Source: Bacillales bacterium (lineage in GTDB: Bacteria > Bacillota > Bacilli > Bacillales > DASSOY01). From it: DNA of 64,000 nucleotides. Below are positions 9,345 to 13,036 of this stretch, piece after piece (the first letter of the stretch is position 1; each line of letters begins with the position of its first letter). The stretch spans positions 1-64,000 of the forward strand of contig DASSOY010000063.1 in assembly GCA_035700025.1 (NCBI GenBank), given 5' to 3'. Position numbers and translations under genes: made by a program. The notes under the pieces were generated by a model. It did not search any database and was not told the DNA's origin. It worked only from the letters and a program-made list of their open reading frames with translations.

Positions 9345-10220
9345 TCACCCTTTTTTGAACCGTTTTCGCTTTTTCTTCTCTCTTCGAGGCGGCAATGACA
9401 CCTTTTCCGTATCTCCGCCGTCGACGGCAGTAGAACGTTCACCTGTTTGATCCACTTGTTGCTCAATCGCTTTCACTAATTCAAGCAAACGTGCATATTT
9501 CTTTTCGTCCTTCTGATGCAGCGCTTCGCGTTCGATCCGTTTGCGCAGGCAGGAAATGTCTGTTTCGATCGACCGATCTGCAAAACCGTCGGCTTCGCAT
9601 GACGAAGCCAGTTCCTTGCCCGCCAGCCATTGCAAAAGCTTCCGCTGGTTTTCGTCAATCTCCACTGTCTTTTCGTACATTTCCCCGAAAAACAACGAAG
9701 CGAATCCGCGCCGCAACTGCTTCTCTCTTTTTTTGTATTCGTCATACAGCATAAACACTACGTAAATCAAACAAAACGAAAGCAGAAAATAAAACCCTTG
9801 TTTGCTGCTTAAAAATAAAATCGGATAGCCGAGCCAGTGGAACGATTTTCCGGCGATGCCCATGATATCTTCCGGCAAAACGGTAAACGGATCTTGTCCG
9901 CCGTTGTGATCCCCCTTGATGCGAAATTGCAACTGTCCGTTTACTTGCTTCTTTTCTACGACCCGGTGAATGATCGTCTCTGGATAACTTTTGAATCGAT
10001 TTCTGACGGATTCGGGAACGTGAACGACAATGACGTCACCCTTTTGAACCTTTTCAGGAGAAACCGGTTCGACCCAAACGAGATCACCGACGCGAAAAGT
10101 CGGAATCATGCTCGTGCTCGGAATCGCTGCGAACGGCGGGGTTCCGAACTGAAAATAAAGGATGACGGCTCCCCAACCGGCCAAAAACAAGAATGTCGTT
10201 ATTCTTCCAAACGCTTTCAT
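9345..10220 (-). CDS. ER-type (SipW-like) signal peptidase I with long C-terminal extension
   Basis: Membrane serine protease that removes signal peptides. The N-terminal 160 residues match the SipW/archaeal group: a membrane segment (about 9-25), the catalytic serine in STSMIPTF (Ser37), a histidine in place of the general-base lysine (IIHRVV, His85), the IKGDHNGGQDPF motif (Asp104/Asp110) and a second membrane segment near 141-158. Beyond this is about 130 residues predicted to be cytoplasmic, rich in charged helices, ending in a run of Lys/Arg. B. subtilis SipW lacks a tail of this size. It follows two small secreted-protein genes, which are its likely substrates. AGGGG precedes the ATG. 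Confidence 0.85.
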   Translation of the reverse strand: MKAFGRITTFLFLAGWGAVILYFQFGTPPFAAIPSTSMIPTFRVGDLVWVEPVSPEKVQKGDVIVVHVPESVRNRFKSYPETIIHRVVEKKQVNGQLQFRIKGDHNGGQDPFTVLPEDIMGIAGKSFHWLGYPILFLSSKQGFYFLLSFCLIYVVFMLYDEYKKREKQLRRGFASLFFGEMYEKTVEIDENQRKLLQWLAGKELASSCEADGFADRSIETDISCLRKRIEREALHQKDEKKYARLLELVKAIEQQVDQTGERSTAVDGGDTEKVSLPPRREKKKRKRFKKG

Positions 10221-10280
10221 CGCTACAGCCCCTGTATACCGATCGTGGAAAAAAGCGGCGATCCCATCGTCGCCGCTTCT

Positions 10281-10886
10281 TTACATTCTTACCATACAAT
10301 GAAATTGTAATTGGTTCAATTGCTTTTGCTGCCCCGGAGGCAACGAACCGGCAGGACTTACATAGGACGCAATGATGTATAATGTCGTATTGCCAGGCAC
10401 AATTTTGCCAGGCATGAGAATGCCTGTTGCTTTTGTTCGATTCAAATGAACCATCGCTTTGTCCGCAGTAAACTTCTTCAGCGCCGTTCCATCGTCGAGA
10501 ATAAGGTCGGCCGCTGATGCGTCGACAATCGGATAATAGACGCCGACGTCCATCCACCAATTGGATTTCACGAGGTTCGTCTCACCGTTAGCTTGAACGA
10601 AATTAGTCGCGCTCAAATAAATTTGTGCCAATTCGCTGTAACGCTCATTGCCGAGTTCGATTTTGTACAGCGGGATGCCGGCAATCTTCTGCGGTCTCCC
10701 CTTATGAACGTCGAATGCGCTGCCGTCGACTATCGAAGTGATCGCCGCCGCTTTGCCGCCAGGCAGCGCGCTGTCCGTCGTAATGTGCAGCTGCAACAGT
10801 TGAGATGTGAACGCCCAACTGACGAACGATAAGGAGAATACAGCGGTGACTGACAGGAGAAACATTTTTTTCTTCGTCACCTTCAT
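10281..10886 (-). CDS. Secreted protein of unknown function, second gene of the SipW-like cassette
   Basis: I do not recognise a family. The 201 residues start with a basic end and one hydrophobic segment (FLLSVTAVFSLSFVSWAFTS), a signal-peptide-like region whose WAF end recalls the region after the hydrophobic core in TasA and camelysin. The mature part is about 170 residues, likely beta-rich, with Gly/Pro turns and only one cysteine close to the end. The ATG at 10886 is 12 bases after the previous gene; a GTG directly after that gene's stop (10898) is an alternative start. Exported and processed by the downstream peptidase is my inference. Confidence 0.75.
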   Translation of the reverse strand: MKVTKKKMFLLSVTAVFSLSFVSWAFTSQLLQLHITTDSALPGGKAAAITSIVDGSAFDVHKGRPQKIAGIPLYKIELGNERYSELAQIYLSATNFVQANGETNLVKSNWWMDVGVYYPIVDASAADLILDDGTALKKFTADKAMVHLNRTKATGILMPGKIVPGNTTLYIIASYVSPAGSLPPGQQKQLNQLQFHCMVRM

Positions 10887-10898
10887 TACGTTCAACAC

Positions 10899-11444
10899 CT
10901 ATCGAATTTCGACGTAATATTCAGGCGACAAGCTCGATCCGTCCGTCGTTGCTGTAGAAATGCAGTAGAAGCTGCCGCTGTCGATGCTGATGGAGTATAA
11001 ATCATACGTGTCATTGATCGTGAACGAAACGTAGCCGTTGGCCAATGTCAAGACGCTCGGTTCGGACAAAACATCTGTCCAGACCGTGTCTTCCGTATTT
11101 TTCCCGTAAATGTTAATTTTCAGATTCAAATAGCTGTAGTCGTTGGCAAGCGCGGCCGCGTTGCTTAAATAAAGGGTTCCGTAAATATCGCCTGTCGCCC
11201 CTGCGCTTCTGTCAATGATGTACAAGTCGCCGGATCCGGTCGTTCCGGACGTATTTACGGCAGGTTGCCAACTAGAAAAATCTACGGTGCCGTAGTTACC
11301 TGCGCCCGCGACTGCTTGTGTAACGTCTGCAAACCCTGTTGAAGACACTGTGACCGTCTTTGTCGCTTGCGTGCTCGCGTAGTTAATCCCGGTAATCGCC
11401 AGCGCCGTTACCACAGCCAACACAAAAAACAGTTTTCGTTTCAA
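10899..11444 (-). CDS. Secreted Ser/Thr/Tyr-rich protein of unknown function, first gene of the SipW-like cassette
   Basis: I do not recognise a family. The 181 residues begin with MKRKLFFVLAVVTALAITG (signal peptide) followed by a polar, Ser/Thr/Tyr/Asn-rich region that looks like extended beta structure; one Cys lies near the end. The start is a TTG at 11444 with AAGAGGGG seven bases upstream; an earlier TTG (11465) has no such site. It heads a three-gene operon driven by the promoter at 11607-11635. The layout resembles the tapA-sipW-tasA matrix operon in logic, but I see no clear sequence match to TapA or TasA. Confidence 0.75.
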   Translation of the reverse strand: MKRKLFFVLAVVTALAITGINYASTQATKTVTVSSTGFADVTQAVAGAGNYGTVDFSSWQPAVNTSGTTGSGDLYIIDRSAGATGDIYGTLYLSNAAALANDYSYLNLKINIYGKNTEDTVWTDVLSEPSVLTLANGYVSFTINDTYDLYSISIDSGSFYCISTATTDGSSLSPEYYVEIR

Positions 11445-11489
11445 TGAAAGTCCCCTCTTTCTCAATGTGATCGAAAGAGGCCGGTTGCA

Positions 11490-11540
11490 CTACTCGCTCC
11501 AATGCGCCCTGTAAGTGCCCAAATAAAGACGCAGTTTCAT
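11490..11540 (-). CDS. Possible 16-residue leader peptide
   Basis: In the 160-base leader of the cassette a tiny frame reads MKLRLYLGTYRAHWSE and stops. AAGGAGG lies about 15 bases and GGGAG 2 bases before its ATG, so neither spacing is ideal. It could be a leader peptide or chance. Confidence 0.25.
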   Translation of the reverse strand: MKLRLYLGTYRAHWSE

Positions 11541-11606
11541 CGCTCCCTCGACTATCCTCCTTATATTACCAAAAAGTTACGACGAAAGTACTAAGATGTT
11601 ACTCCT

Positions 11607-11635
11607 ATTATAATCTTATGAGTCTATTAATACAA
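11607..11635 (-). promoter_or_regulatory. Sigma-A promoter of the secreted-protein/signal peptidase operon
   Basis: TTGTAT (11635-11630) and TATAAT (11612-11607) are 17 bases apart on the minus strand, in an AT-rich gap after rluD. It shows that the cassette is an independent transcription unit. Confidence 0.7.
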
Positions 11636-11685: not shown

Positions 11686-12585
11686 TCATAATTGCCGCAG
11701 CGCTTCCGTCATTGTTTTCGGCATTTCCGCCTCAAATCGCATCTGTTCCCCGGTTGCCGGATGCTCGAAACCAAGAACTGCTGCATGCAACGCCTGACCC
11801 GGGAGCGGCAGCGATTTTCGGGGTCCGTATTTTGGATCCGCCGCCACTGGATGGCCAATGAAGTGCATATGTACCCGAATCTGGTGCGTCCGCCCGGTTT
11901 CCAGCCTGCATTCAACGAACGTATAGCGATCGAAGCGTTCCAACACCGTAAAATGTGTCACTGCCTGAACGCTGTTTTTATCGGTGACCGCCATTTTTTT
12001 TCGGTCCTTTTCATCCCTGCCGATCGGCGCGTCGATTTTTCCATGATCGTGTTTCAACACGCCGTGGACAATTGCTTTGTATGTTCGTTCGATCGTTTTC
12101 GCTTTCAATTGTTCTGACAAACACTTGTGAGCACGGTCATTCTTCGCAACGACCAACAAGCCGGACGTGTCTTTATCGATGCGGTGAACAATTCCTGGTC
12201 GGATCGTTCCGTTTATGCCCGATAAATCGCGGCAATGGTACAGGAGCGCATTTACGAGCGTGCCCGTTTCATGTCCGGGAGCAGGATGAACGACCATGCC
12301 TTGCGGCTTGTTGACGACGATGACGTCTTCGTCTTCGTATACAATATCGAGCGGTATCGGTTCTGCAACAACTTCCAGCGGTTCCGGATCGCGAACAGAA
12401 ACTTCGACGACGTCTTCTGCTTGAATTTTATAATTCGCTTTCACCGTCTTCCCGTTCACTTTCACGGCCCCGTCTTTGATCCATTGCTGTACTTGAGAAC
12501 GTGTCCAATCTTCGATGGCAGCGAGCCATTTGTCAATCCTCGTCCCGTCTTGTTGCAAATCAACGGTTCGTGTATGAATCTCCAT
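11686..12585 (-). CDS. rluD: RluD-family rRNA pseudouridine synthase
   Basis: Modifies uridines in 23S rRNA. The 299 residues hold an N-terminal S4 domain (RIDKWLA...[16 protein letters not shown]) and the catalytic domain with the aspartate in [16 protein letters not shown] and the [13 protein letters not shown] motif. It corresponds to ylyB of B. subtilis, which sits between lspA and pyrR; here the secreted-protein cassette separates it from pyrR. The ATG at 12585 has AAGGGAG upstream and lies 26 bases inside the lspA end. Confidence 0.95.
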
Positions 12586-13036
12586 GAGTGCTCCCTTTCT
12601 TCGCATCCGCGAGCGTATGTATGAAAATTAAAGCAACCCCGATACACAGGCTCGAATCGGCCACATTGAAAATCGGAAAGTTGATGATCGAAACGTAAAT
12701 GAAATCGACGACTTCCCCGCGCCAGAGCCGATCGATAAAATTCCCGACTGCCCCTCCGAGCACCAGCCCGAGCGCAATGCCGAGAAGCGGCTGTTTCCGG
12801 CCTTGCGTTTGCAAATAATAAATGACTCCAATAACGACCACGACGGTAATGATATAAAATAACCACATTCGTCCTTGCAAAATGCCGAAGGCGGCCCCCC
12901 GGTTTCGATGCGAGGTGATCGACAAAACACCCGTCCATACCGGAATGCTTTCACCGATTTCCATCTTCGCCGCGACGAGCCACTTCGTCCATTGATCGAG
13001 AAGGATGACCGCGACGGCCAATATATAATAACGCAC
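12560..13036 (-). CDS. lspA: Lipoprotein signal peptidase (signal peptidase II)
   Basis: Aspartyl protease of the membrane that cleaves prolipoproteins after lipid transfer. The 158 residues have four hydrophobic segments and the two catalytic aspartates in [18 protein letters not shown] and [11 protein letters not shown], plus the conserved [12 protein letters not shown]. It starts at a GTG (13036) with GGAGGAG upstream; the longer open frame is not supported by the family length. It is coupled to rluD by overlap. Confidence 0.96.

Follow-up and report, generated by a model that had tools for sequence, protein, structure and literature searches.

Three genes, all on the minus strand, lie between rluD and pyrR in the 64,000-nucleotide stretch of DNA analysed here (the window), at the place where the preliminary description had put them. 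They encode two secreted proteins, ORF1 and ORF2, and a signal peptidase. The features of the region, listed from rluD to pyrR, are the following.

11686-12606: rluD (Pfam PseudoU_synth_2, 1.9e-38, also S4)
11607..11635, minus strand: promoter-like sequence TTGTAT-17-TATAAT, read by eye
11470..11556, minus strand: c-di-GMP-II riboswitch aptamer (RF01786, full model 1-84)
11452..11480, minus strand: putative expression platform, with the 3' strand of P1 facing a partner that covers the Shine-Dalgarno sequence
11444-10899, minus strand: ORF1, 181 aa, TTG start, Shine-Dalgarno AGAGGGG; predicted secreted CanA-like jelly roll (profile, AlphaFold2, Foldseek, VIA)
10886-10281, minus strand: ORF2, 201 aa, ATG start; secreted, beta-rich, present in all intact cassettes
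10249..10276, minus strand: terminator-like hairpin GCGGCGA/TCGCCGC followed by six T, between ORF2 and the peptidase gene
10220-9345, minus strand: signal peptidase of the S26 family, ER/archaeal type, 291 aa (TIGR02228, SEC11, clade support)
about 9046 down to 8516, minus strand: pyrR (Pfam Pribosyltran, 1.1e-24)

The promoter-like sequence is regarded as weak because it is missing from the output of the consensus scanner. The preliminary description was correct about the three genes of the unit and overlooked the c-di-GMP-II riboswitch just upstream of them (11556-11470), so that the start of the unit has to be moved to that position. Both ORF1 and ORF2 carry signal peptides and gave no significant match in Pfam or NCBIfam. 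The pyr operon is a separate unit with its own promoter-like site (9337-9309, an 11/12 match in the consensus scan) and a PyrR-binding leader. In the start region of pyrR, ATG, GTG and TTG are all missing, and the reading frame is open from a stop at about 9069 onwards; the conserved start may be an ATT codon, or the start may be damaged or misassembled.

To place the cassette among other genomes, a mixed peptidase alignment was scanned against one genome per species (84,980 species), which returned two species with clear peptidase relatives, Terrihalobacillus insolitus (L055) and Paenibacillus alkaliterrae (L056). In both, ORF1, ORF2 and the peptidase are all present in the order seen in the window. 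A profile search of the Paenibacillaceae added genome G915, with an intact cassette (L143), and genome G941, with a decayed one (L142, 5353-3904) in which ORF1 is intact and ORF2 runs out of frame into an apparent remnant of the peptidase gene. Intact cassettes with a common gene order are thus present in four genomes (the window, L055, L056 and L143), and because three genomes besides that of the window hold the three genes in order, the arrangement represents more than chance. Compared with the window proteins, the relatives are 36-55% (ORF1), 34-51% (ORF2) and 38-44% (peptidase) identical. Each genome has other genes at the flanks, rluD and pyrR in the window and, for example, serS and a pyrroline-5-carboxylate reductase-like gene in T. 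insolitus (names assigned by reading the sequences). The cassette was found in 3 of 247 Paenibacillaceae, in 1 of 110 members of the T. insolitus family and in 1 of 8 members of the G915 genus. This low frequency, together with the differing flanks, suggests that this conserved module has spread horizontally or has often been lost.

When single sequences served as queries, neither ORF1 nor ORF2 in 249 genomes of the order, nor ORF1 in 398 genomes of the phylum, yielded a convincing match outside the window's own genome. Likewise, the peptidase used as a single-protein query against genome contigs gave no match, whereas the mixed alignment did find relatives. No match was obtained in a plasmid search with the T. 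insolitus ORF1, nor in scans of viral contigs with the ORF2 and peptidase profiles. A possible resemblance to proteins of the Chloroflexota found no support when 301 genomes of that phylum were searched at E 1e-3, although L135 shows that such proteins do occur in some host.

A related arrangement is found on the IMG/VR contig 3300049914_000368 (L135), in which two ORF1-like proteins are followed by a peptidase of the cassette clade. This locus resembles the cassette in that order and differs from it in having no ORF2 of this type and in that one of its subunits carries an extra N-terminal domain and a membrane segment. The protein in question (L135, 2628-3392) is cannula-like, and its additional domain has the look of a small beta-grasp by eye, with no Pfam match. 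On L135 and two further IMG/VR contigs, L145 and L146, the cassette-type peptidase directly adjoins similar phage-like genes, so that the unit there is either a neighbour of an integration or carried by a phage.

The peptidase matches the TIGR02228 archaeal-type signal peptidase I with 82.9 bits (cutoff 51.85), and its best relatives in the PDB are SEC11C and SEC11A. In an alignment of the cassette peptidase with ten SipW-type proteins, S37, H85, D104 and D110 were invariant, which bears out its description as an ER-type signal peptidase with a Ser37/His85/Asp pattern. It also has a charged C-terminal extension of about 130 aa. The preliminary description had further called it SipW-like, and this holds as a functional analogy and fails as a statement of membership: the peptidase scored 47.6 bits against the SipW equivalog NF046067, well below the cutoff of 190, and a tree computed for 56 peptidases joined the six sequences of the cassette type (support 100) on a long branch apart from the SipW of TasA clusters. 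The expected co-occurrence of peptidase and substrate was found as well, since at every locus examined an ORF1 relative is followed by a peptidase of this same clade, except in the decayed L142. That the cassette peptidases form a single clade indicates that the peptidase and its cannula-like substrate have travelled together, in bacteria and on a virus-linked contig alike.

All ORF1 and ORF2 signal peptides that were read end in an aromatic residue followed by Ala (NYA, SYA, SFA, SWA, VWA, IWA). The TasA signal peptide has the same type of ending, and Trp at P2 hinders cleavage by LepB, the ordinary peptidase (PMC10269814). By this analogy, the aromatic-Ala endings fit the use of a dedicated peptidase for ORF1 and ORF2. 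Given the hairpin and six T that follow ORF2 in the window, expression of the peptidase probably falls below that of ORF1 and ORF2, as judged from the sequence. A similar GC hairpin with a T run occupies the gap between ORF2 and the peptidase gene in L143, and none is present in L055 or L056. In two Bacilli MAGs (L064, 1088-3714, and L070, 2812-5438), genes for three small secreted proteins and then for an ER-type peptidase, which belongs to another clade, lie upstream of a ksgA-like gene; these loci are perhaps a further peptidase-substrate system.

Regarding the nature of the substrates, a profile of ORF1 built from seven relatives was compared with all PDB sequences, and CanA of Pyrodictium abyssi came first (E 1.9e-4), followed by CanX (E 7.8e-3). 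A weak third match was to 4eae (Lmo1068), a Listeria protein of unknown function (E 0.015). With the five Bacillota sequences alone, CanA was still first, at an E of 0.019, which makes the sequence evidence by itself moderate. An AlphaFold2 model of ORF1, computed from five sequences and no templates, reached a pTM of 0.66, with a pLDDT of 76-88 over most of the core. When this model was searched with Foldseek, ranks 1-5 were all cannula entries (E 3.5e-6 to 4.4e-4, probability 1.00), and the next match, at 6.8e-3, was unrelated. VIA gave the cannula entries Z scores of 12.2, 11.7, 11.6, 11.1 and 8.7, against 6.8 for the next unrelated fold, with an rmsd of 3.0 over 127 aligned residues for the best. 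These entries are the cannula proteins CanA and CanX of Pyrodictium and the Hyper2 tube protein (PDB 7uii, 9dlo, 9hdi, 9h8b and 9bab). Jelly rolls are a common fold, and the identity of ORF1 to CanA is only about 15%. Since the sequence profile and the predicted fold agree, we assign ORF1 to the cannula family, as a predicted relative of CanA, from which the archaeon Pyrodictium forms its tubes. The preliminary description had allowed that the secreted proteins might belong to a known unrelated family; for ORF1, the match is instead to a family that forms fibres.

In cannulae, CanA touches adjacent protomers with its N terminus, and CanA without its N-terminal 11 residues does not polymerise (PMC12326000). 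In ORF1, residues 24-36 have low model confidence and lie outside the aligned core, and the arm that precedes this core is about 12 residues long, compared with 19 in CanA. ORF1 resembles the cannula proteins as a small secreted jelly roll with a cleaved signal peptide and a probably flexible N terminus, all of them predicted features. Unlike them, it occurs in Bacillota, in the company of a second protein and of a dedicated peptidase, and downstream of a c-di-GMP-II riboswitch; moreover, the cannula proteins assemble with calcium into hollow tubes, which for ORF1 is a conjecture. According to the 2025 structure paper, CanA has no significant sequence relatives outside the cannula proteins (PMC12326000). 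Our literature search found no paper on a bacterial cannula relative; the cannula cryo-EM paper of Sleutel et al. lay outside this search and may mention some.

For ORF2, the model was poor (pTM 0.53), and its fold matched generic jelly rolls only, among which the cannula entries were tied at a Z of 5.8. Profiles of mature ORF2 and mature ORF1 built from the Bacillota rows were colinear, with a score of 31.4, where 100 column shuffles reached 22.4 at most, and this score was 19.0 when the viral rows were added. Part of a strong similarity seen initially came from the signal peptides, and this share, together with the drop to 19.0, makes the similarity between ORF1 and ORF2 suggestive only. By profile and model, ORF2 is a probable divergent jelly-roll sister of ORF1, and it possibly acts as a starter, an anchor or a second subunit.

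The aptamer in the window matches RF01786 with 59.9 bits (E 3.5e-12), above the gathering threshold of 53.5, and the cassettes of T. insolitus (64.4 bits, E 2.1e-13) and P. alkaliterrae (63.5 bits, E 6.2e-12) also carry a c-di-GMP-II riboswitch above this threshold. It is therefore present in three of the four intact cassettes, and none was detected in L143. In P. alkaliterrae, the riboswitch lies about 550 bases upstream of the cassette, with a small possible ORF between them, and this distance makes the link between switch and cassette less direct. A search with a covariance model built from the three cassette riboswitches found no c-di-GMP-II riboswitch in the 114 other SipW-type loci. Two of these loci carry an unrelated c-di-GMP-I riboswitch (L075, 8782-8866, in Pseudalkalibacillus, and L057, 3060-3152, in Alteribacillus), and some TasA-type genes may likewise be under riboswitch control.

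The arrangement downstream of each aptamer is indicative of the direction of switching. In the window, the 3' strand of P1, CCTCTTTC (11480-11473), can instead pair with GAAAGAGG (11461-11454), and the Shine-Dalgarno GAGGGG (11457-11452) is then masked. The counterpart in T. insolitus, CCTTTTCTT with AAGAAAGG, consists of other bases and keeps the pairing arrangement. In P. alkaliterrae, the P1 strand pairs into an intrinsic terminator, CCATCTTTC-tata-GAAAGATGG-TTTTT. Because P1 competes in all three with a hairpin that either hides the Shine-Dalgarno sequence or terminates transcription, c-di-GMP should turn the cassette ON in these genomes, with the reservation that the RNA energies ignore the ligand and the pseudoknot. 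C-di-GMP is the "settle down" signal of bacteria. All class II switches of C. difficile are of the ON type, with pilin and adhesins under their control (PMC6200980). The cassette resembles that regulon (pilA1, surface adhesins) in the RNA class, in having surface-structure genes downstream and in the ON logic, which is here predicted; it differs in its cannula-like content and in that control appears, in two cases, to act at the start of translation.

Taking these data together, we infer the following course of events. As cells settle, c-di-GMP would rise, the P1 helix of the riboswitch would fold and free the ribosome site, and ORF1 would be made, whereas at low c-di-GMP the 3' strand of P1 would pair with the Shine-Dalgarno sequence. 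ORF1 and ORF2 would be exported via Sec, and the dedicated ER-type peptidase would cut the signal peptides from both. Mature ORF1 could then polymerise outside the cell, most likely by insertion of its flexible N-terminal arm into an adjoining subunit, as cannula proteins do, and ORF2 would serve as a second subunit, starter or anchor, the part that TapA plays beside TasA. The hairpin after ORF2 would keep the subunits in excess over the peptidase. It is, therefore, our main reading, with a probability of roughly 0.6, that the cassette is a c-di-GMP-induced, self-exported operon for a surface fibre, possibly a tube, whose assembly is proposed by analogy. The earlier suggestion of a self-contained export and assembly unit with substrates other than TasA is strengthened by the co-occurrence of the genes and by the cannula match, the fibres themselves being putative.

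The known systems closest in layout are tapA-sipW-tasA of B. subtilis and CalY of B. cereus, in which two secreted beta proteins and an ER-type peptidase likewise share one operon and signal peptides end in aromatic-Ala. This shared logic, and the fact that TasA is also a jelly roll that polymerises by donor strand (PMC9674648), would agree with an aberrant, fast-evolving TasA/CalY operon of the ordinary SipW-TasA system. Most other SipW-type matches examined do sit in ordinary TasA/CalY clusters. However, PF12389 (TasA/CalY) has no match in ORF1, in ORF2 or in the whole genome, which also holds no second SipW-like match, and the substrates show no detectable sequence similarity to TasA: in hhalign comparisons with ten TasA-type proteins, the probability was 0.2% for the ORF1 profile, and 0.1% and 0.5% for the mature parts of ORF1 and ORF2. 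TasA was not among the matches listed by Foldseek and VIA for the ORF1 fold, although its absence from these lists leaves room for a TasA-type fold. With a peptidase that falls outside the SipW clade and far short of the SipW equivalog, we consider a derived TasA operon highly improbable. The cassette also differs from tapA-sipW-tasA in the long C-terminal tail of its peptidase and in its predicted control by a riboswitch.

It could also be argued that ORF1 and ORF2 do not polymerise at all and are adhesins or glycan-binding jelly rolls, matured by the peptidase and displayed under c-di-GMP control. Carbohydrate-binding modules and adhesin domains do follow the cannula entries in the fold lists, at Z scores of 5-7, and adhesins are among the genes controlled by the C. 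difficile switches (PMC6200980). Against this, the cannula proteins stand far above such matches for the ORF1 fold and are at the top of the sequence profile search, and no surface-anchor domain of a known kind was found in ORF1 or ORF2 with Pfam and NCBIfam, which leads us to regard non-polymerising adhesins as unlikely. Finally, the cassette might be cargo of a phage or another mobile element that alters the host surface rather than a part of the host matrix. Its patchy occurrence in the Paenibacillaceae and the T. insolitus family, its changing flanks and the three IMG/VR contigs with the same peptidase type beside phage-like genes are what one would expect of such cargo, to which we nevertheless give only a slim chance: none of the four intact bacterial cassettes has a recognised phage or transposase gene as its immediate neighbour, and the L135 unit, located between host-type genes (an aminotransferase and lexA) and phage-like genes, may mark an integration edge.

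A c-di-GMP-induced fibre operon is, therefore, the interpretation that we retain. What is new here is that a fold family and an export logic, each already known, come together in another host and under another type of control. The product may be a tube, a thin fibre or a sheet. The more far-reaching proposal, that some spore-formers build true hollow tubes of the cannula type, controlled by a c-di-GMP riboswitch, exported with a dedicated eukaryote-like peptidase and spreading as a module of riboswitch plus three genes, is a tentative one that we hold with some doubt.

To our knowledge, cannulae are known only from hyperthermophilic archaea, Pyrodictium and its kin, which are hard to grow and lack simple genetics. 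If our main reading is true, a cannula relative from bacteria that can be cultured, Bacillaceae and Paenibacillaceae, would open the function of cannula-like fibres to standard genetic tests and would link such fibres to life in biofilms. It would also constitute a second peptidase-substrate fibre system beside SipW-TasA, and the cassette would offer a self-contained, ligand-switched nanofibre module.
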